A stretch of DNA of 64,000 bases from contig JAJPGU010000003.1 of NCBI GenBank assembly GCA_021325615.1, positions 1 through 64,000 on the forward strand, read 5' to 3'. How positions within the stretch are numbered: position 1 is the first letter of the stretch; each line of letters begins with the position of its first letter. Positions 30,598-41,136 of this stretch are shown piece after piece. The DNA comes from Nitrososphaerota archaeon. GTDB lineage: Archaea > Thermoproteota > Nitrososphaeria > Nitrososphaerales > Nitrosopumilaceae. Under the pieces are notes generated by a model. The model did no database searches and had not been told where the DNA came from. It was given only the letters and a program-made list of their open reading frames with translations. A program made the position numbers and the translations under genes.

Positions 30598-30830
30598 AGG
30601 ATGTATCAAGATAAAAAGAAATGGGAAGAGAGGCCAAAGAAAGACTTGCACGCGGGGCTCCGAGCGGCGCAGTCAGAGAGTCTAGGACATGGAAGGGCCC
30701 ATAGGGCCGGCTACCTAGTTTGGCATTTCGTTCAAGAAGGAAAACTATGCCCCAAAGCAGATCAGCAGAGACTGCAATTGCGATGGGCATTTAGCACTCT
30801 TTAACTAGGAACTGCGCACATGGCTAAATC

Positions 30831-31172
30831 ATGGACAAGAAGGTTTCTGGAATAGGGAGGTTTCTTGCGCCTTCCTTGGACAAAATTGAGGAAGAATTGA
30901 GCGCAATTCATGACGAAGTTAATGGAGTAAATGCAAGAATGGAAGAGACTTTGAATAGGCTGGAAAAGTTGGAAGAGGGTTACAGGCACCTTGCAGCCCG
31001 CATAGATAAGAATGACAACGGAATGACGACAGAGGCCAAAGTCCTGTTTGACAGCATAAACGAGATGGCCGGGCAGAACCGGGATGAGGTTGATGTTTTA
31101 AAGCGTACGATGGACGTTACGCAGAGAAGGCTATCCACTCTTGAAGCAAAAATGAAGGAGCTTGGCAAATAA
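30831..31172 (+). CDS. Coiled-coil protein, 113 aa
   Basis: After a short head (MDKKVSGIGRFLAPSLDK) the whole chain is heptad-patterned, with LEKLEEGYRHLAARI and VLKRTMDVTQRRLSTLEAKM, and very rich in Glu, Lys and Arg. No signal peptide or membrane span. It probably forms a homo-oligomeric coiled coil; role unknown. It is preceded by an AT-rich box (about 30799-30806) about 28 nt from the ATG. It is the last gene before the tRNA-Val-linked segment. Confidence 0.55.
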   Translation: MDKKVSGIGRFLAPSLDKIEEELSAIHDEVNGVNARMEETLNRLEKLEEGYRHLAARIDKNDNGMTTEAKVLFDSINEMAGQNRDEVDVLKRTMDVTQRRLSTLEAKMKELGK

Positions 31173-31230
31173 CTCGGACAAGCCATTTGCATGGGCTCGT
31201 TAGGGGAAAAGTGGAGCAGAATCTCAATTT

Positions 31231-31332
31231 CTATTTTTTGGATTCTTCGGCTTTTTTCACTGCGTCAATGTCATCCGATGCTTTTTTGTTACAAGAGCAA
31301 GACATTATCTTTGCAATTATTTCTTTTAACAT
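31231..31332 (-). CDS. Possible micro-protein, 33 aa
   Basis: A short frame from ATG 31332 to TAG: MLKEIIAKIMSCSCN then a charged tail ending AEESKK. The CSC group and strongly charged helix look protein-like, and the AT-rich sequence before it could be a promoter, but chance cannot be excluded at this length. Confidence 0.3.
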   Translation of the reverse strand: MLKEIIAKIMSCSCNKKASDDIDAVKKAEESKK

Positions 31333-31511
31333 GTATGCTCGAATTTTCATGCACATATAAGTGAAGGATTCGTGGAATTAATGGCACGATAGGACAGGAT
31401 GTGGCCTTTACATTGATTCTAGTCAAAAGTAATACAAGGAGAAGTTGTCGGAATTATTAGGAGGCCCATGTTGGGCAGGAAGCTGCCCATAAAGACTGGC
31501 TGTACGAGTCA

Positions 31512-31541
31512 CAACGTGACCCGTAAAGACAGAGAAAATGG
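31512..31541. repeat. Distal att-like copy, 30 bp
   Basis: Thirty bases (CAACGTGACCCG to GAAAATGG) identical to 34408-34437 in the same orientation. The bases beyond it (GTCGAGAAAG) still resemble the tRNA 3' end (GGCCGAGAGAG), as expected for a partial tRNA copy. Confidence 0.75.
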
Positions 31542-31640
31542 TCGAGAAAGGAAATCAAAGACAGAGGATTAAACCGGCAAGGATGTGGTTAAACTATTTC
31601 AATATCCAGCCTGACAGCTCGGCCGGACAATTGTAGTTTC

Positions 31641-32225
31641 TCACGGGTTCACACAAGGTAAAATTTGACCGAAATAGTCGTTGTTATTTACCGTAAAGGG
31701 GGGTTTAATGATGGCGAAGCCCAAGGTTGTCAATTCCGAGGTTTCATTCTGAGGCGCAAGTAAGGTCAGATCGGTTTCAAAATAACCATTTGGACCGCCA
31801 TATTGGTTAAATCTTGCAGCAAAATAATTCACCTCCTTATCTTTGAGATACAGGGTAACTGCTGTTCCCAAGGTGCAGGATCCCTGATTATTATGGAAAT
31901 AAGGTATGGTTGCATTTGACCAAGGCGGAATATTATTTCCCACCATTTTATATGCAAGCCAAGCAGTTTGCATCCCCATCAGTCCCCAATTGCGATTAAC
32001 CAACTTTAACGCTGTTTCTAGTTTTGTGCAGGCAGGCGACCCACCAGCCTTCTTGAAGATATTGACAAACCCTTGGTTGCATTTTATCTGGTCCAAAGGA
32101 ACACCGTGCTTTGCCTGTTGTATTGGAGGGGGATAATCGGCGTATGCAAAGTGTTGTAAACCATTTGCATCTAATGCAAGCATGATAAGGAAAAGTGAAA
32201 TTATTAGGTCAGGTGAAGTTTTCAT
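31641..32225 (-). CDS. Secreted protein with two-cysteine Nitrososphaeria domain
   Basis: 194 residues from ATG 32225. Signal peptide about 1-29; then at residues 40-81 a compact domain with IKCNQGFVNIFKK, SPACTK and LVNRNWG, holding two cysteines about 17 residues apart. The remaining C-terminal half is a beta-rich domain with a further Cys pair. The same domain occurs at 37280-38188 and 38995-40383. The start overlaps the stop of the upstream gene (ATGA); a longer frame to 32249 exists but would intrude on it. Last gene of the four-gene operon. Function unknown; extracellular. Confidence 0.65.
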   Translation of the reverse strand: MKTSPDLIISLFLIMLALDANGLQHFAYADYPPPIQQAKHGVPLDQIKCNQGFVNIFKKAGGSPACTKLETALKLVNRNWGLMGMQTAWLAYKMVGNNIPPWSNATIPYFHNNQGSCTLGTAVTLYLKDKEVNYFAARFNQYGGPNGYFETDLTLLAPQNETSELTTLGFAIIKPPFTVNNNDYFGQILPCVNP

Positions 32226-33595
32226 TTTCTCCTCCAAATAAAAATACACAGTCCTGCTGCCAAACCTGCACCTACTATACCTAGTACAATAAATGAAGTC
32301 TGCGAAGTTTGCGAATTGGAGGTTGACCCACCAAGAGAAAGGGGTACAAATCCCGTCGAGTTGTTTGAACTTTTCATTGGGCCGCCCGGATTTCCTTCAT
32401 ACTGTGCCCCTTGTTGTTCACTGATACTCAATATTCTGGTCAGGGATGGGTCTTCAGTAATTACTAGATTTTTCACAAATTTACCGTTGCTGTCAGTAAG
32501 GGTGAACACGACGTTTACCGTTGTGAGGCTGCATCCATTGAGCATGTTGGCAATACTGTTAAACTTGTAGGAATAGCCTTGGACTTTAGACCGGAACTGG
32601 TCGGAATTTTCAGCCATATTAATTGCAGTTTCATTGTCGCTTGATATGCCAAGCTGTCTTGAGCAGTATATCAGCAATCGTGTTTTATCATATGGATTCG
32701 CATCTCCAGTCTCATTCTTCGGTGTTTGTGACGTAATCGACGTGGCAGGTGCCAGTGACTGCCCTATTGAAGTCCCAAGAATGTCAAGATTGCAGGTATG
32801 ATACATATCTAGATTGCAACTCACGTACTTCATAGACAGAGTAGAATAATTTCCTGCCCTAGTTAGCGTGAATGGTATGTCATATCCACCCAAAAGCCGT
32901 ACAGTAAAGTGTCCATCAAGAAGACCTTTTGGAATCGCGACGTTCATGAAATGATGCCATTCAGTTGCGGAGACATCAAGGTCCAGCTTCCTCTCAGACG
33001 GAATGAAACTCCAGTTGCATATCCTGTTATCCGAATCCATGTTTACTTTATACCCGTCAATGTCAAGGCTGGAATGTCTTGCCTGTATTGGGTGGGCAAG
33101 ATCATCATACTGATAAACGTCCCAGTTGGAGAGTTTTACTGACGAGTCATCAAGGTATTGGAACTGAACCTGAATTGTCTGCCCCTTGTAGGATGAATCT
33201 TGTGGTCCTAGAGCAAATATGTACATGGTATAATTTCCCGGTAGGACGTCGGTCAATATCGTAATGTCTCCATCCATGATCCCATTTGTGGCGTAATCTG
33301 GCGCATGGCTGATTTGGATCGGGAGCCCATTTCTCCCTATAACGCATGACTGATAATCCAAGCTTGCTTCTGCACCCGCATCAGGAACCACATTTCCAAA
33401 ACTATCAGTAATTTTGAATTGAAAATGTAGATGGCGCTCTGGATCTACTTGCTTGTCCATTGCAAGGTTGGATACCACAATTTTTGTAACGTTCCCGCCT
33501 GTAGATCCAGAGTAAGTTTGTTGCGCAAATGAGTCTCGGGTTGTAATGACAGACAAGATTACCAGAACCGCAATTATTGCAAGTAAAGTTTTCAT
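32222..33595 (-). CDS. Large secreted, C-terminally anchored surface protein
   Basis: 457 residues from ATG 33595. Signal peptide (MKTLLAIIAVLVILSVI, cleaved near SFA-Q), a long beta-rich ectodomain with several Asn-x-Ser/Thr sites and Cys residues (YHTCNLD, YCSRQL, NGCSLTT), then a membrane helix about 430-452 and RRK stop-transfer end. No PEFG motif. It resembles Ig-like MG2-type ectodomains in outline (GNYTMYIFALGPQDS). It follows the 130-aa gene by 4 nt, and its stop overlaps the next start. The longer frame to 33658 overlaps the upstream gene and lacks a signal peptide. Confidence 0.62.
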   Translation of the reverse strand: MKTLLAIIAVLVILSVITTRDSFAQQTYSGSTGGNVTKIVVSNLAMDKQVDPERHLHFQFKITDSFGNVVPDAGAEASLDYQSCVIGRNGLPIQISHAPDYATNGIMDGDITILTDVLPGNYTMYIFALGPQDSSYKGQTIQVQFQYLDDSSVKLSNWDVYQYDDLAHPIQARHSSLDIDGYKVNMDSDNRICNWSFIPSERKLDLDVSATEWHHFMNVAIPKGLLDGHFTVRLLGGYDIPFTLTRAGNYSTLSMKYVSCNLDMYHTCNLDILGTSIGQSLAPATSITSQTPKNETGDANPYDKTRLLIYCSRQLGISSDNETAINMAENSDQFRSKVQGYSYKFNSIANMLNGCSLTTVNVVFTLTDSNGKFVKNLVITEDPSLTRILSISEQQGAQYEGNPGGPMKSSNNSTGFVPLSLGGSTSNSQTSQTSFIVLGIVGAGLAAGLCIFIWRRK

Positions 33596-33599
33596 CTCA

Positions 33600-33992
33600 T
33601 CAACCCAAAAGTTGACCAGTTTTAGCATCCACATAATGAACATCTGCCCTGACCCCACTAGTCATATCACAATCCCCCCGGACTTTCCATACGTATTGAT
33701 TATCTTTGAATCCATTTTTGACATACTCGGATGCTAATGCATAATCTTGCATGGTATTTTCGTCTACGTGGTAGCTTCTTGTGCTATTTACGATGTGGAT
33801 TAAATCGACTATTACAGTTCCATGCCTTTCAGACTGTCCCGTGCAGTTAAATGCCCTCCAAAAAACGTCTACTGCCTGTGATTTTGGTATAAGGTGAGGG
33901 TTTTCAATAAAGTTGTAAAGAATCAGCAGGCCGCTTCCTACGCCTATCGAAAGTAATCCTATTGTTATGGCGTTCAGAGCTTTCCTGTTCAT
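33600..33992 (-). CDS. Membrane-anchored small extracellular protein
   Basis: 130 residues: one N-terminal hydrophobic helix (about 8-27) and a soluble domain with two cysteines (FNCTGQ, RGDCDMTSG) and HVDENTMQDYALASEYVK. It probably faces outward. It begins 1 nt after the stop of the 73-aa gene and ends 4 nt before the next start, so the operon is tightly coupled. Not recognised. Confidence 0.55.
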   Translation of the reverse strand: MNRKALNAITIGLLSIGVGSGLLILYNFIENPHLIPKSQAVDVFWRAFNCTGQSERHGTVIVDLIHIVNSTRSYHVDENTMQDYALASEYVKNGFKDNQYVWKVRGDCDMTSGVRADVHYVDAKTGQLLG

Positions 33993-33993
33993 A

Positions 33994-34215
33994 TCAATCT
34001 TTAAGGCGTTTCAAAATTACCGCAACCATGCCTGAGACTCCTACCACAATAGCCCAACCAGCCCAACGGTTCTGTGTTAACCAATTTACATCAAACTGGT
34101 TTGGGCAGACTGCTCCTATGCCACACACACAGAAAGTGGAATGAAAATAATAATTAAAACTGGCGTAGATTCCCATCGTAAGATTATTCCAGAGTCCAAT
34201 TTCATTCTCAAACAA
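33994..34215 (-). CDS. Small single-helix membrane protein, first gene of operon
   Basis: 73 residues from TTG 34215. It contains CVCGIGAVCPNQFD and one C-terminal membrane helix (WAIVVGVSGMVAVIL) with a KRLKD tail. The TTG is preceded by TTTAGA at 25 nt. An ATG 13 codons in is an alternative. Coupled to the following gene by TGATATG. Function unknown. Confidence 0.42.
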   Translation of the reverse strand: MFENEIGLWNNLTMGIYASFNYYFHSTFCVCGIGAVCPNQFDVNWLTQNRWAGWAIVVGVSGMVAVILKRLKD

Positions 34216-34407
34216 ATTTTAGTCTACTGAAATTCTGGGTCTAAATTCAGCTCACAAATGTAGTGAGACTAACAGTCCCTCTTTGCCAAGGATGATGGTT
34301 CCCATTTGTAACACCCCTAAAAATCGAAGGGTATACTGAAAAAAAAGAATTCAAATCATAGGGAGTTCAGACCGCAACGATGTCCAAAATGCCTGTAAGT
34401 TCAACCG

Positions 34408-34437
34408 CAACGTGACCCGTAAAGACAGAGAAAATGG
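34408..34437. repeat. Proximal att-like copy, 30 bp, overlapping tRNA-Val 3' edge
   Basis: Identical to 31512-31541. It includes the discriminator and the last two acceptor bases of tRNA-Val and 27 bp of downstream flank. Confidence 0.75.
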
Positions 34438-34508
34438 GCCGAGAGAGATTCGAACTCTCGACCACCGCCGTGTCAGGGCGGTATCCTAACCAACTAGACG
34501 ATCGGCCC
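34435..34508 (-). tRNA. tRNA-Val(GAC)
   Basis: 74 nt on the minus strand. Acceptor GGGCCGA pairs with TCGGCCC plus discriminator A; anticodon stem CCGCC/GGCGG encloses loop CTGACAC giving anticodon GAC; T-stem GAGAG/CTCTC encloses TTCGAAT. The D-stem has two G-U wobbles. No CCA is encoded and no intron is seen. Similar Asp tRNAs carry GTC; the A at position 35 makes this Val. Confidence 0.93.
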
Positions 34509-35355: not shown

Positions 35356-35449
35356 GGGCTCGTGGCGCAGAGTCGTTATCGACGCGAAACATGGACAGCG
35401 CGGTAGCCTCCTAAGTTACAGGTCGAGGGATCGAAGCCCTCCGAGCCCG
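35356..35449 (+). tRNA. tRNA-Arg(CCU) with apparent D-loop intron
   Basis: 94 nt. Acceptor GGGCTCG/CGAGCCC, D-stem GCGC/GCGC, anticodon stem GTAGC/GTTAC with loop CTCCTAA (CCU) and T-stem GAGGG/CCCTC all pair. The D-loop is 29 nt instead of 8; removing 35372-35392 (21 nt) leaves AGAGGACA. A bulge-helix-bulge-like fold is possible: bulge AGA, GTC with GAC, GTT with AAC, bulge ATG. The T-loop reads ATCGAAG, with A at position 54 instead of T. The 3' end is duplicated at 40673-40687. Confidence 0.85.
35434..35448 (+). repeat. att-like core inside tRNA-Arg 3' end
   Basis: AAGCCCTCCGAGCCC covers the end of the T-loop, T-stem and acceptor 3' strand. The same 15 bases recur at 40673-40687. Confidence 0.7.
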
Positions 35450-35521
35450 CTCTCACTTACCGACCGGAATCCGATTATCTGCCTCCTTCCAGATCTGTCA
35501 ATTGAGTTTGAACCGTGGTAA

Positions 35522-35588
35522 AATACTGTGAACCAAAAGATCGAAATAATAAGGAGTCTATTACAGTATTAAGAGGTGCGAATTCGCA
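35522..35588. repeat. Inverted repeats just inside the tRNA-Arg-linked segment
   Basis: AATACTGT (35522-35529) is reverse-complemented as ACAGTATT (35563-35570), and a 12-bp palindrome TGCGAATTCGCA follows at 35577-35588. They lie within 140 bp of the att-like core and upstream of no plus-strand gene, so they may be recombination or control sites. Confidence 0.45.
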
Positions 35589-35613
35589 TCTTAGAGGGTA
35601 TACGATGGTGGGA

Positions 35614-36354
35614 TCACGGTCGTGTGCCTTCGTCCTTTTCATTATTATCAGGCGGGAATACGATTAGGCCATAGCCCACAATTTTCTCATCCTTGGTATG
35701 GAATAATTTTTCAAGTATCTTCCAGTACTGGTTAAAATGAGCATTTTTTGCAAGATATTTTATTGTGCAATATGCTACAGCATCGGCGACTTGGATACCT
35801 TCTGTTCCATGTGAGGTTGCAAACATGGGCTCACCAACGATGTTGTCGATTCTTTGCCATTTTTCCTTGTTTTGACGCATCCCCTTGATTATTTTGCCTA
35901 GTTCTTGGCGCTCTTCTACCGTTACCCTATCCATTTTGATTAACCCCTTTTCTTCAAGAAAATTTATCGATTCTAGGTATTGGTTAAATCTTGTAACTAG
36001 GATGATCCAAGCAGTCTTGAATATTTTCCAATTCGGATGCTTTTGTTTTAGCATCTCCTTGTCAATGACCACCGTGATAATTTTGACTGGTAGGCCTGAA
36101 ATCATGCGATAGAGCTGATCGAGTAGGTTATTTTTCTCATGCATCCGTAAGCTGGCAAATTCATCCTTTGATTTGCAAATATTATGAGTATGGATCTCTG
36201 CGTCAGTGTAATTATTTATGAAATAAGTTTGTTTGTAATCAAAAACACTTCGTTTCATTGCTTTTATCTTGTCGTTATGGACTATGATACCACACAGCAT
36301 ATAGTATTTACTTGTATCATTAAAGCTTTGAACTCCCGATTCATCGATGTACAT
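35614..36354 (-). CDS. DUF3800 family protein (RNase H-like fold)
   Basis: 246 residues. MYIDESG at the very start and the distal acidic motif GIQVADAVAYC (about 200-210) are the DUF3800 hallmarks, with VVIDKEM supplying a middle acidic strand. The family has an RNase H-like fold with conserved Asp/Glu, is common on mobile islands and sometimes linked to defence, but its substrate is unknown. ATG at 36354 directly begins the first strand; a few residues may be missing compared with longer relatives. It is coded on the strand opposite to the adjacent tRNA and is the island gene nearest to it. Confidence 0.78.
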   Translation of the reverse strand: MYIDESGVQSFNDTSKYYMLCGIIVHNDKIKAMKRSVFDYKQTYFINNYTDAEIHTHNICKSKDEFASLRMHEKNNLLDQLYRMISGLPVKIITVVIDKEMLKQKHPNWKIFKTAWIILVTRFNQYLESINFLEEKGLIKMDRVTVEERQELGKIIKGMRQNKEKWQRIDNIVGEPMFATSHGTEGIQVADAVAYCTIKYLAKNAHFNQYWKILEKLFHTKDEKIVGYGLIVFPPDNNEKDEGTRP

Positions 36355-36450
36355 GGTATACAGTTCTATCTACTCCCCGCTTTGTCAATTAGACAGGTAA
36401 TCGAACCATAAAAAGTGATCCAGACTCTATCTTGCATAGGCGCATGACAA

Positions 36451-37215
36451 TTATTCAGAATTTGATTTTGGTACTACATTTATCGGTACGCTCAGGGTTG
36501 GAGCCAATGAATTTGGGTTGTCAATGCTCTGCCATACAAAGATCTGGGCAGTATATGCCCCGGGGGCAGCCGGAATCCATGATTGTGTAGGGTTGAGTGA
36601 TTGGCCTGCAATCATGGTGCCAGTAATCCAGGAGAGCCATACCGTTACATCATTCTGATTCTGGATCTGTACTATGTATGCAAACGGTTGGACACAGTTG
36701 AGACCGTTTGCCAAAGGAGTAATAATTTGTATCTGCTGGCCCACTTTGACTGTTCCATTGATCGCATTACCAAACGTGTCAACTATCCTAGGGTTACTTG
36801 CCGGGTAGGAAATCGCGTTGTACCAAGTCATGCTTGGTTGAATGCATGGAGTACCTTCATAGCTAAATGTGGTCTGATTCTTGGCTCCCAAATAAGTGGC
36901 AATTATCGTAAACGTTCCAATCGGAATATTTTTGTTGCCTATGTGCATGGGGTAGGAATAACTCCCATCTTGGCCTGGAATAACTGATAAAGTTGCCAGA
37001 TTCGGATTGTCAGGTGCCTCAATCTGGATTGATACCGATTTGTTTGGTACAACTGGGCTGACTTTGCCTGAGATTGTGTATCGGTCGCCATAATGGTACC
37101 ATCGATTATCGGTAGAAACCGTGATTGTTTGGAGTGCCAAGACTGGTTGGTAAAAAATGGTGATGACAACTACCAAAATTGCAAGTAAAGCCATAGAAAG
37201 GATCCGAACCTTCAT
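36451..37215 (-). CDS. Secreted Ig-like/MG2 domain protein
   Basis: 254 residues: signal peptide (about 1-27, cleaved near VLA-L), then two beta-sandwich domains. YHYGDRYTISGKVSPVVPNK (about 41-60) is like the macroglobulin MG2 type; the second domain covers about 135-250. Two cysteines (TPCIQ, LNCVQ) may form a disulfide. No membrane anchor at the C-terminus. It shares with two other island genes a promoter element exactly 28 nt from the start. Function unknown, extracellular. Confidence 0.65.
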   Translation of the reverse strand: MKVRILSMALLAILVVVITIFYQPVLALQTITVSTDNRWYHYGDRYTISGKVSPVVPNKSVSIQIEAPDNPNLATLSVIPGQDGSYSYPMHIGNKNIPIGTFTIIATYLGAKNQTTFSYEGTPCIQPSMTWYNAISYPASNPRIVDTFGNAINGTVKVGQQIQIITPLANGLNCVQPFAYIVQIQNQNDVTVWLSWITGTMIAGQSLNPTQSWIPAAPGAYTAQIFVWQSIDNPNSLAPTLSVPINVVPKSNSE

Positions 37216-37242
37216 ACTTGTCCTAATATGTGCAAATTTAGG

Positions 37243-37270
37243 TTAAAAAATTGACGTATGTTTGTTCTGG
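37243..37270 (-). promoter_or_regulatory. Shared island promoter element, copy C
   Basis: On the minus strand CAGAACAAACATACGTCAA leads into TTTTTTAA. The outer edge of the TATA box (37243) is 28 nt from the ATG at 37215, so the mRNA is probably leaderless. Confidence 0.6.
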
Positions 37271-37279
37271 GTTCAAAAA

Positions 37280-38188
37280 TCACGGTACAACAGAAATTTC
37301 CTTTGTAATGTTTCCATCAAGCCAAGAAATATTGATGTAATATGTTCCCGTCTGGTTAATTATCAACGGCCCATAATTATTCCAGTCATATCCCAGATGT
37401 GATTCTCGTCCAAGAAACGCCTCATCTTCCATGTGCCCTGTGCCTATCCCTATTGCACATCCCGTTGCATATTGGGAACTCTTCCATACGATCTTCTGAT
37501 AAGAATCTCTGACTGTGATAGTTGGCTGATCACATCCATATCCAAATCCATTGACTCTGAATTTGAAATCTATTTCCTGCCCCACATGGTAAGCACTCTT
37601 GAGTCCATAGACAGTTAATTTCTCAGAAGGATCATAGCCCCAATTTAGGGAAACTAACCTCTGCAGGCTGGCCGGTTTTACGCATGCAACAGATCCATCT
37701 TCTTGCTTCATTATCATAACAAGGCCGGAATTGCATTGGATGTTCCAAAAAGCCATTCCTGCCTCTTCTTGCTTTAACGGAGGAAGGAGGCCTGCATAAA
37801 ACGTGAATGTGGCGTCACCAATGTAACAGCAGGTGCCATACTGAACCCTTAGGTCGTAAGGACCGCCCGTCTTCCAGTCTGTATTGTTGATAGGTATGCG
37901 CAAAAGAAAGGTCAGGTCCTGTCTTGGTTTTGTGACTTGGGTCAGTATGGGATTTCCTTTGCTGTCAAATATTTTGGCAGTAACGTTAGAGCCTAGGCTG
38001 TAATTTCCTATTGAACCGTAAACGAGTATGATATCTCCCTTGAGGTAGACAGTCTTGTCGATTTGAAGAAATACTGGCTGTGAAGCATTAGCTTGGCAAA
38101 ATATTTTGCATTCTGTAGTTTGGCTTGTAAGAAAAGTAATTACCGTTACTAGGATCGTTATCAATACAAGATGATGTGTCTTTCTCAT
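37280..38188 (-). CDS. Secreted MG2-like protein with two-cysteine domain
   Basis: 302 residues from ATG 38188. Signal peptide (about 1-22), an MG2-like domain (KTVYLKGDIILVYGSIGN, about 45-62) with a Cys-Cys pair (GTCCYIG), then the two-cysteine domain at about 138-184 (IQCNSGLVMIMK, VACVKP, LVSLNWGYD), then another beta domain (about 190-302) with Cys near 219 and 244. A longer frame to 38353 is only the translation of the promoter repeat. The start lies 28 nt from the promoter element A. The combination of MG2 and two-cysteine domain links the proteins of both tRNA segments. Confidence 0.65.
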   Translation of the reverse strand: MRKTHHLVLITILVTVITFLTSQTTECKIFCQANASQPVFLQIDKTVYLKGDIILVYGSIGNYSLGSNVTAKIFDSKGNPILTQVTKPRQDLTFLLRIPINNTDWKTGGPYDLRVQYGTCCYIGDATFTFYAGLLPPLKQEEAGMAFWNIQCNSGLVMIMKQEDGSVACVKPASLQRLVSLNWGYDPSEKLTVYGLKSAYHVGQEIDFKFRVNGFGYGCDQPTITVRDSYQKIVWKSSQYATGCAIGIGTGHMEDEAFLGRESHLGYDWNNYGPLIINQTGTYYINISWLDGNITKEISVVP

Positions 38189-38206
38189 AATTTGCCATAC
38201 AATGAA

Positions 38207-38243
38207 TTTTTTCTCTTTAAAAAAATGGCGTATCTTTGTTCTG
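38207..38243 (-). promoter_or_regulatory. Shared island promoter element, copy A
   Basis: 37 bp identical at 36 positions to 38914-38950. Minus strand: CAGAACAAAGATACGCCA, then TTTTTTTAAAGAG. The TATA edge at 38216 is 28 nt from the ATG at 38188. Confidence 0.65.
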
Positions 38244-38282
38244 TATTTATAATCATTTTTTGTTTTTGAGGAAATTTTCCGT

Positions 38283-38621
38283 TCAGGTAGATACCACATC
38301 GTGATAATAGCAAAGTATGGCAAGCTGCCTGAAATCTCGCCTGAATTTTTCAATATGCTTTGGGATCTCTCTTTTTACCTGTCTTTCAAACTTGGTCTTT
38401 GGTATGAAGATAGAAAATTCAAGATTTGTGTCTTGATAAACAAAGCCGTCCTCCCTCCAATATCCTTCAGAAGGGCTGTCAACACTTAGTCCTTCATATT
38501 TATCAATGAAGAAGTTTTTCACATCTACGATGGCTTGATCGGGTATTGGATCGCCGTTATTGTAATTTGTTGGCAGCTTGTAGTGGAGCTTTACTTTATT
38601 TTCTAGAAGGGGTTTTGACAA
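38283..38621 (-). CDS. Hypothetical protein, 112 aa, in tRNA-Arg-linked segment
   Basis: 112 residues, TTG start. No signal peptide. The chain mixes charged helices and strands (VDVKNFFIDKYEGLSV, LEFSIFIPKTKFERQVKREI, HIEKFRRDFRQLAIL). It begins 3 nt after the stop of the 61-aa gene, forming a small two-gene unit. Such tandem small genes on an element can be toxin-antitoxin pairs, but no known family is recognised, so this is left open. Confidence 0.5.
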   Translation of the reverse strand: MSKPLLENKVKLHYKLPTNYNNGDPIPDQAIVDVKNFFIDKYEGLSVDSPSEGYWREDGFVYQDTNLEFSIFIPKTKFERQVKREIPKHIEKFRRDFRQLAILCYYHDVVST

Positions 38622-38624
38622 CTC

Positions 38625-38810
38625 CTACAATTTTGTGTACTGGATATTTAACTTTGAGAGCAGATCGCATTGTTTTTGTGAGATATAGTATTCTGTCCTT
38701 GAGACTGCTCTGAATTGTTGGCCGCTTTTGCGCAACGCACCTATCATTTTTACTTCGATCTTGGGATCAACCCTTACTTTACGATAGGTGTCAAGCTGTT
38801 GTGATTCCAT
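38625..38810 (-). CDS. Hypothetical small protein, 61 aa
   Basis: 61 residues, ATG 38810, basic, predicted mixed helix and strand (YRKVRVDPKIEVKMIGALRK, SQKQCDLLSKLNIQY). First gene of a pair with the 112-aa protein. No family recognised. A promoter copy (38914-38950) lies about 105 nt upstream but is better placed for a lost gene. Confidence 0.45.
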   Translation of the reverse strand: MESQQLDTYRKVRVDPKIEVKMIGALRKSGQQFRAVSRTEYYISQKQCDLLSKLNIQYTKL

Positions 38811-38913
38811 CTAGTAATAATGCAAGTACATGAGTTATTAATATTGTTGAGATCTTGTACAGAAGAAAGTGCCTGTGCGCATAGCCTTTTTGATGCCCCA
38901 ATTTTTTGTTCTC

Positions 38914-38950
38914 TTTTTTCTCTTTAAAAAAATGACGTATCTTTGTTCTG
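38914..38950 (-). promoter_or_regulatory. Shared island promoter element, copy B, apparently orphaned
   Basis: One mismatch in 37 bp against copy A. At the fixed 28-nt distance (38895) there is no start codon, unlike copies A, C and D. A short frame with a signal-peptide-like stretch (HFLLYKISTILITHVLALLL) follows and stops at about 38791, suggesting the remains of a deleted secreted-protein gene. Confidence 0.5.
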
Positions 38951-38994
38951 GTTTTTCGATACCAAATCGTTACATTCAATCACAATATCTCTGA

Positions 38995-40383
38995 CTAGTT
39001 CAGGGTACCAGAGAGCATCTCAATCGAACTTTTGGGATACTCGTTTGTGACATAGATAGTGTCCGTCTTTGGGTTGACTGCAAGAGAGAAGATAACAGTG
39101 TCTGATCTCAGCTCGCCAACCTTCCTGTTTGTCTTGCCATCAAGTACATCGATGTCATGTGATCCTGAGACTACAAGATTCCTTGAAAAGTCGACGTAGC
39201 CTGCTACACCCACGTATACCTTGTTTTCTTCTGTATTGACAGCAATGGACTTTGGAGAGACAGTATAGTTGCCAATCACCTCGTTGGTGGTACCGTTTAT
39301 GATGGATATCCAGTCCGAGTTGTGGTCCTGCCCGGGCCATCTGCACCCGCCACACACAGCATAAATCGTGTTTGATGCAGGGTTTACCGCAAGTGGAACT
39401 ATTCGCAACGAATCCGGAATTGTAGATATGCCCCCAGGGCCTGTCCTGCCGATTGTCACGTTGGCCATGATGCTGTCAGTTGAGCCGTCAATTACGGTGA
39501 CATAGTATGGGACATGGTGGTGGTCATCCTGAAACTCGTCGATATAGACTCTGTTTGTGATGGGATTTACCCCTATCCCGTAGGAGCTTCCGCCGAGGCC
39601 CAAGATTGTCTTGACTACCCTGTCCGTCCTGCCGTCAATTACTGTGATACCGCCGTCGGGATAATTCCAGTCGCTTACATAGACCTTGTTGGTACTTGGG
39701 TTTACCGCAACCTCAAGTGGCTCTATCTTGTAAAATCTTGGCTGGATCCGAATTGGATTATATGTTACCTGAGGAGTATGCGCACCCATATCTGTGATCT
39801 TGATGACTCCAATCATCCTGTCTGTTGAACCGTTTATTACCACTACTGCATCAGGTGAGTTCCTGTTTACAACATAGACCTTGCCTGTTACTTGGTTGAC
39901 TGCAACATCCCAGGGGTTGCCGTTTATTGGAATCACATCCAAAGTCCTGTTTGTGGAAGCATCAAGCACATACAATGACCTGCCAAGATAGTCTGCAGCA
40001 TAGACTCGGCTCGTGACAGGATCTACGGCAACTGCAGCAAAGAGGTCTTTTGGATTTTCCTGTTTCCTTACAGTTGGCGCATGCCCCCATCCCCTCTCTA
40101 TCAGTTTCTGAGCGGTATCAGGCCTAAGACATGCAGGCATGGAGCCTTCCGATCTGACTAGCAATTGAAATCCTGCTTTGCATTTTATCTCCTGATTTGG
40201 GACGCCGGATTGGGATTGTACAAGTGGGGTGCTTGTATTGTCTGGAGGTGTCTGAGCTTGAGTGTTGCTGTTTCCAAAAAGGAGCAAAATTAGTGCCATT
40301 CCAATTATCAAAAAGTGTACGAATTTCAATCTTTGATGTATTGCCTGATTGTTTGGCAAGACGGAAAGGATGGGGGTCTTCAA
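38995..40383 (-). CDS. Secreted YVTN-type beta-propeller with two-cysteine domain
   Basis: 462 residues from TTG 40383. A long basic N-terminus leads to a hydrophobic signal core (about 22-37). Residues 59-100 hold the two-cysteine domain (IKCKAGFQLLVRS, MPACLRP, LIERGWG). From about 110 to the end, six to seven propeller blades repeat a pattern like VNPSTNKVYVSDW followed by VIDGRTDRVV. Such propellers are extracellular binding platforms; S-layer association is possible. The TTG is supported by the promoter element at exactly 28 nt; the first internal ATG would remove the charged part of the signal. Confidence 0.8.
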   Translation of the reverse strand: MKTPILSVLPNNQAIHQRLKFVHFLIIGMALILLLFGNSNTQAQTPPDNTSTPLVQSQSGVPNQEIKCKAGFQLLVRSEGSMPACLRPDTAQKLIERGWGHAPTVRKQENPKDLFAAVAVDPVTSRVYAADYLGRSLYVLDASTNRTLDVIPINGNPWDVAVNQVTGKVYVVNRNSPDAVVVINGSTDRMIGVIKITDMGAHTPQVTYNPIRIQPRFYKIEPLEVAVNPSTNKVYVSDWNYPDGGITVIDGRTDRVVKTILGLGGSSYGIGVNPITNRVYIDEFQDDHHHVPYYVTVIDGSTDSIMANVTIGRTGPGGISTIPDSLRIVPLAVNPASNTIYAVCGGCRWPGQDHNSDWISIINGTTNEVIGNYTVSPKSIAVNTEENKVYVGVAGYVDFSRNLVVSGSHDIDVLDGKTNRKVGELRSDTVIFSLAVNPKTDTIYVTNEYPKSSIEMLSGTLN

Positions 40384-40410
40384 AGTATACCATAGTTTTA
40401 GTCTCCAAAA

Positions 40411-40433
40411 TTTAAAAAACTGGCGTATATTAC
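40411..40433 (-). promoter_or_regulatory. Shared island promoter element, copy D
   Basis: Minus strand ATATACGCCAG then TTTTTTAAA. The TATA edge at 40411 is 28 nt from the TTG at 40383. The CAGAACAAA part seen in A, B and C is not kept. Confidence 0.55.
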
Positions 40434-40557
40434 CTTCTTACAGTTTTTCTGAGAAATCGAAGTTATCGGGTTGGTATAGAAGGGAATCAACTGCAGAAGC
40501 AGCAGAATTGTATTGGGCTTGTGCAAAGTCTGATTTTCGGATTAGGACGCGGTCCAC

Positions 40558-40573
40558 AAAAACTATAGTTTTT
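40558..40573. repeat. 16-bp perfect palindrome AAAAACTATAGTTTTT
   Basis: A perfect palindrome followed by three more bases of a T-run (TTT), about 100 bp inside the right att-like copy. It could be a terminator or a protein-binding site; no further evidence. Confidence 0.45.
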
Positions 40574-40672
40574 TTACGAGACTATAGCATGCTTACAAAA
40601 AAACAGTAGAGAACTGCAAGTATATGCTGGAAATAAAAAATTGGGAGGGTTTCCTATCAGCATGTGAGTCCA

Positions 40673-40687
40673 AAGCCCTCCGAGCCC
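40673..40687 (+). repeat. Distal att-like copy of tRNA-Arg 3' end
   Basis: AAGCCCTCCGAGCCC, identical to 35434-35448 and in the same orientation. Sequence on either side is unrelated to the tRNA apart from a few bases. Confidence 0.7.
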
Positions 40688-40762
40688 ATCCTTACATATA
40701 CTGGTACAGGCCAAGCACAAGGCAAGGGAAAAAATTTGCAAAAATATAGCCTAGTCAGTAGA

Positions 40763-40987
40763 CTATGGACCGGATTCGCCCGATTCTGAAGAGCCGGATT
40801 CCCCAGACTCTCCGGTTGCACCTGCTGACGAGGATTGGTTGGATTCTTGAAGATGAAGCGCGTTTTCCGTGCTCTCTTCGCCTGGCAACCCCATTGCCTT
40901 GTCACCCATGGTTGACTTGATCCCAACAATCGCTACCGCAATTGCAACTACTACAATGCCTGCACCGACTGCAATCTTCTTATTCAT
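40763..40987 (-). CDS. Small exported protein with acidic Ser/Gly tail
   Basis: 74 residues. A signal/anchor helix (MNKKIAVGAGIVVVAIAVAIVG) is followed by an acidic, low-complexity tail rich in Glu, Ser and Gly (GESGESGSSESGESG). It lies just outside the right att-like copy. Membrane-tethered outside the cell is likely; function unknown. Confidence 0.5.
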   Translation of the reverse strand: MNKKIAVGAGIVVVAIAVAIVGIKSTMGDKAMGLPGEESTENALHLQESNQSSSAGATGESGESGSSESGESGP

Positions 40988-41136
40988 GAAATACTATTTT
41001 TATTACTCTATAAGAGGTTGGTTCCCATTCCTATTGGTAAGAATGGATCTTAGCCTTTGCGGAGCTTGCCGCATTTTATGTCGTTTTCACTTTTCTGAAA
41101 AAGACAAACCCTCCGGGGCTACCCTTTTACTTTTTC

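Follow-up and report, generated by a model that had tools for sequence, protein, structure and literature searches.

Insertion at the 3' end of tRNA-Arg(CCT)

A 5.2-kb segment (element A, positions 35449-40687) within a 64,000-nt stretch of DNA (the window) from an ammonia-oxidising soil archaeon of the genus Nitrosotalea is very probably a decayed cryptic integrated element (CIE) seated at the 3' end of tRNA-Arg(CCT), probably in tandem with the remnant of an older one. Comparison with congeners shows an insertion, the tRNA end is present in two copies, and sister genomes have complete elements of the same class together with a tyrosine recombinase.

The target gene, on the forward strand at ~35357-35448 (attB/attL), is conserved in ~30 congeners and contains a ~20-nt intron in the D-loop, an insertion that occurs throughout the genus and is absent in a genome from another family (G053). 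ARAGORN did not report this gene in the window, probably because of the extra D-loop stretch, and tRNA-anchored elements at tRNA-Arg(CCT) may escape notice since the program misses it. The neighbouring tRNA-Val(GAC), placed by ARAGORN on the reverse strand at 34435-34508, is the target of further elements. As the preliminary description had stated, the two tRNAs are separated by bluB alone, with each insert 3' of its own tRNA. The gene order around bluB is kept in the genus (RtcA, copD-like, LEA-like, PNPox, tRNA-Val, bluB, tRNA-Arg, s141, cc170, s79, and peptidyl-prolyl isomerase). In one congener, G032 (L057, 2863-6046), the copD-like and LEA-like genes are separated by ~3.2 kb of additional DNA, in an interval that is compact in relatives.

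A search for relatives without the insert had been proposed, and 23 of the 29 congeners assessed at both tRNAs have an empty site at tRNA-Arg. At these sites, bluB and tRNA-Arg come directly before s141, which has its stop codon ~15-50 bp past the tRNA. Both tRNA-Arg and tRNA-Val are unoccupied in G005, among the closest congeners by bluB (protein identity 88%). The clean empty sites imply that the window DNA at tRNA-Arg was inserted; no insert collinear with A was found in any sister genome. Two contigs of the MAG G016 (C8 and C13) are 99.7% identical over the 1,170 nt up to the tRNA-Arg end, past which C8 runs into an element and C13 into an empty site. The pair suggests a population in which the site is occupied in some members and empty in others, and would be indirect evidence for mobility of the element family; the contigs could also come from two mixed strains, in a MAG that is error-prone and 70% complete.

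The last 15 nt of tRNA-Arg (attL, 35434-35448, forward strand) recur exactly (15/15) and in direct orientation at 40673-40687, as first described, and this inner copy forms the right end of A and probably also the left end of a second unit, B. These are the only two sites for the core in the whole 1.83-Mb genome when up to one mismatch is allowed. The left end of A, GCTCTCACTTACCGACCGGAATCCG(A)TTATCTGC (35449-35482, forward strand), agrees with the tRNA-Arg element of G030 in 33 of 34 nt and resembles those of G016 and G020, all of which have an integrase gene or its remnant just inside. Base composition also sets A apart, as predicted: it has 41.8% GC versus 48.9% in the rest of the window, a value lower than in any of the 430 windows of equal length outside the inserts, and the GC3 of its genes is 0.40-0.51 versus mostly 0.5-0.7 outside. 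Neither equal composition and codon use inside and outside nor a gene order conserved through 40687 in unrelated genera, both of which had been named as evidence against a mobile segment, was found.

The converse history, in which the genes are ancestral at the locus and were lost in congeners, would fit the presence of secreted-protein genes with WING-49 (an NCBIfam domain of 49 residues) in 14 of the 15 genus genomes searched. It is nevertheless extremely improbable: the empty sites are clean and collinear genus-wide, and both the duplicated tRNA end and the aberrant GC are left unexplained.

Extent of the insertion and tandem units

The preliminary description ended the segment at 40687. 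Its left side holds, whereas the right edge is ~430 bp short, as DNA foreign to the empty sites runs on to ~41105. The additional stretch (40688-41105), which contains a 74-aa ORF (40763-40987, reverse strand), would be the remnant of element B. Directly beyond it, at 41106-41120 on the forward strand, lies AAACCCTCCGGGGCT, which matches the core at 11 of 15 positions, a score equalled by 0.4% of the other 60-nt segments of the window, and its distance to the s141 stop codon is that of the tRNA end in empty relatives. From this match and spacing we infer a decayed outer attachment site, probably the original attR, and thus probably two tandem units, A (35449-40687) and B (40688 to ~41120). A would be the younger and B the older, because the inner core copy is perfect and the outer copy is decayed.

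It is rather unlikely that there was a single insertion with its right end at 40687 and that 40688-41105 with its 74-aa ORF is ordinary lineage-specific chromosomal DNA, an alternative that concerns the extent only and overlaps with the favoured explanation. The incomplete match of the third core is in line with it, as are the left ends of A and B, which are not clearly alike. Yet all empty-site relatives are without 40688-41105, the third core sits at the spacing expected from the empty sites, and the tRNA-Val side likewise has a two-step structure, with an exact inner repeat and a degenerate outer junction. Where a tRNA-end repeat marks an inner boundary only, integrated elements can be undersized if a decayed outer copy is not sought.

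At tRNA-Val, the exact repeat is 30 nt long (31512-31541 and 34408-34437); only 3 nt of it are tRNA, and it is mainly a repeated element left end. The segment 30619-34434 probably consists of two tandem units that have an inner boundary at ~31541 and an outer one at ~30618-30634, further out than the repeat suggests. Element V1 (31551-34434, reverse strand) has four ORFs including a WING-49 protein (31641-32249), and V2 (30619-31550, reverse strand), which has the same 30-nt left end, is a remnant with a coiled-coil ORF (30831-31172). The outer junction is a degenerate outer tRNA-Val att (~30618-30634, reverse strand, 20 of 24 positions) beside the preserved empty-site flank CCCATTTCTTTTTATYTTGATA. 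The left end of V1 and V2 is common to integrase-bearing tRNA-Val elements of other species, and the left-arm motif is strong at this tRNA, where it has a fixed position in nearly all occupied sites. One left-arm motif for both tRNAs was considered and dropped, the motif being weak at tRNA-Arg.

The inserts at the two tRNAs had been taken to suggest a related pair of elements, which is borne out as far as their kind goes. At each of the two tRNAs, the left end of the insert matches elements with an integrase that sister species have at the same tRNA. Both inserts contain WING-49 secreted proteins, and an upstream motif of A is shared with a V1 gene (one core mismatch). They do not form a simple matched pair, as the left ends differ by target and each tRNA probably holds two tandem insertions. 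Joint occupancy across the genus is suggestive only and not clearly non-random: five of the six Arg-occupied genomes are also Val-occupied, versus 7 of the 23 others (Fisher p = 0.056, without phylogenetic correction).

Integrase genes at the two tRNAs

That the segments lack an integrase was confirmed for the window, in which tblastn and a 60-sequence HMM applied to six frames detected nothing above noise. A tblastn match at 31202-31300 was considered as an integrase remnant and dropped as weak (E ~2).

Integrase-bearing relatives hold the same sites. At tRNA-Val, G018 has an integrase-bearing insert, and G006, G034, and G026 have complete elements with both att copies, which share with V1 and V2 the locus, the left-end motif, and WING-49 cargo with MKTLHL-type leaders. 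They differ from V1 and V2 in their size of 10.5-11.9 kb and in having retained a tyrosine recombinase, the gene of which adjoins the tRNA; some add restriction-type genes (Vsr, DNA methyltransferase-like, and nuclease-like) and regulators. At tRNA-Arg, G020 has the C-terminal part of the integrase gene, G016 a frameshifted integrase gene, and G030 a 32-aa remnant.

No model in Pfam, NCBIfam, or PHROG matches this integrase. It has R, K, R, H, and Y as invariant residues where they are expected, a profile match to archaeal XerA (8.4e-6), and a predicted fold like that of XerA/Cre (best E 7e-7, probability 1.00), and by these predictions it is a divergent tyrosine recombinase. The residue set and the predicted fold are those of the archaeal tyrosine recombinases reviewed in PMC8371274, from which it differs in that its HxxR box is YxxR. 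The gene is not split by integration and is thus not of the SSV or suicidal type. Neither relatives of the integrase nor the left-end junction were found in viral contigs. In G034 (L036, 6852-7022) and in L085, the stop codon of the integrase gene is closely followed, in another frame, by the sequence coding for the tail EGWRFVAVLPNGKVVLEK, which is in frame in distant relatives; this may be decay of the tail or possibly frameshifting.

Given these relatives at the same sites, the lack of an integrase in the window looks like a secondary loss rather than a defining feature, a loss that we infer from the relatives since no remnant is detectable in the window. The following course of events is the most likely. 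An element-coded integrase would have recombined its own attP with the tRNA 3' end, restoring the tRNA; an earlier element would have entered first and decayed to B, and A would have entered later at the intact tRNA end. Deletion of the integrase gene of A would have left its secreted-protein cargo fixed in the chromosome, the integrase gene having been lost from both tandem elements.

Alternatively, A never had an integrase and consisted, like a satellite, of att ends and cargo only, integrated in trans by the integrase of a related element. Short inserts without an integrase at the same tRNA-Arg in three congeners are what this origin would lead one to expect. The cleanest is that of G018 (L031, 7727-8733), 1.1 kb long, in which the outer core matches at 14/15 positions, the chromosomal flank is intact, and almost the only genes are those for a HicA toxin (PF07927, 2.9e-21) and a weakly HicB-like protein; the others are 0.9 kb with one WING-49 gene (G017) and 1.5 kb (G036). 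Tandem stacking would supply compatible ends, G018 codes for up to seven integrase-like matches elsewhere, and the left end that A shares with integrase-bearing elements is compatible with, rather than indicative of, such an origin. Deletion of an integrase gene, however, yields the same present-day anatomy, the integrase decays in graded steps at tRNA-Arg in G020, G016, and G030, and the genome that contains A has no copy of the related integrase family, its matches being one distant XerA-like sequence and one fragment. We therefore consider a satellite-like origin unlikely; mobilisation of A in trans is possible. It is similarly doubtful that in Nitrosotalea the tRNA-Val and tRNA-Arg genes are sites at which small cargo units stack up, each equipped with att ends but no integrase and moved by the integrases of separate elements. 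If true, this would be an archaeal satellite or cassette-like system, with WING-49 units, the HicA-type pair, and others.

Comparison with known integrated elements

The thaumarchaeal CIEs, in the sections of Krupovic et al. 2019 (PMC6563490) that bear on them, target tRNA 3' ends, including those of intron-containing tRNAs, have short att sites (median 17 nt), range from 2.6 to 98 kb, and encode mostly unknown genes. A, as a decayed element of this kind, resembles the CIEs described there in its position in a tRNA 3' end, its 15-nt att, its size within the range, its mostly unknown genes, and its auxiliary host-type cargo, and scans with Pfam, NCBIfam, and PHROG found no viral, conjugation, or casposon signature genes in it, as is required of a CIE. 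The CIEs in that account have an integrase, which A, B, V1, and V2 lack, and the latter are therefore relics of a CIE-type element rather than intact CIEs. No case of tandem stacking at both members of an adjacent tRNA pair turned up in the same sections, which report tandem casposons and tandem proviruses.

A and its neighbours are thus of a known thaumarchaeal kind and a fairly ordinary relic, not a new system, and what they add to the known CIE picture is modest: double, stacked occupancy at a pair of adjacent tRNAs. They offer a worked case of how ammonia oxidisers of acid soils acquire genes for surface and secreted proteins at fixed tRNA sites, in a single genus that displays empty, intact, decaying, and stacked states.

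Cargo and the secreted-protein repertoire

The genes of A are on the reverse strand. They encode a DUF3800-family protein (35614-36354; PF12686, E=1.7e-13), for which PADLOC gave no match that would indicate a defence role; a secreted Ig-like protein (36451-37215) with a weak Big_3_5 match and a signal-peptide-like N-terminus; a secreted WING-49 protein (37280-38190; NF058652, E=4.5e-16); a 112-aa ORF product with no assigned function (38283-38621); and a secreted protein that combines WING-49 with a YncE-like beta-propeller in profile searches (38995-40383). A homologue of the WING-49 protein at 37280-38190, with 74% identity, lies in a secreted-protein island of G018, and one of the YncE-like protein, with 46% identity, in the G030 insert downstream of tRNA-Arg.

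A motif search found four copies of the upstream motif AKATACGYCANTTTTTTAA on the reverse strand between 37243 and 40430, at 37243 (one mismatch), 38217, 38924, and 40412. Genome-wide there are 11 sites (up to two mismatches; 0 for the reversed control), four of them in A and the remainder mostly on contigs with WING-49 genes. WING-49 itself has 11 copies in this genome and up to 31 in one congener; of eight genomes of the order searched outside the genus, one has it. Since the motif sites and WING-49 genes are spread over the genome and congeners, the cargo of A belongs to a large dispersed repertoire of secreted proteins. No duplicated tRNA ends were found at the other WING-49 islands of this genome (G000) in the stretches examined (ARAGORN with introns).

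The form TACGYCAnTTTTTTAA lies 5' of WING-49-type secreted genes at 34155, 37243, 38217, 38924, and 40412 of the window and in G000:C32 (14117-18620). It occurs in mobile inserts and in other islands and may serve as a shared promoter or regulator site. G030 also has an extended series of paralogous secreted proteins, many of which begin with MKTLHLAII; it spans L067 5931-12126 and beyond, downstream of the tRNA-Arg element with the 32-aa integrase remnant and a transposase-like gene.
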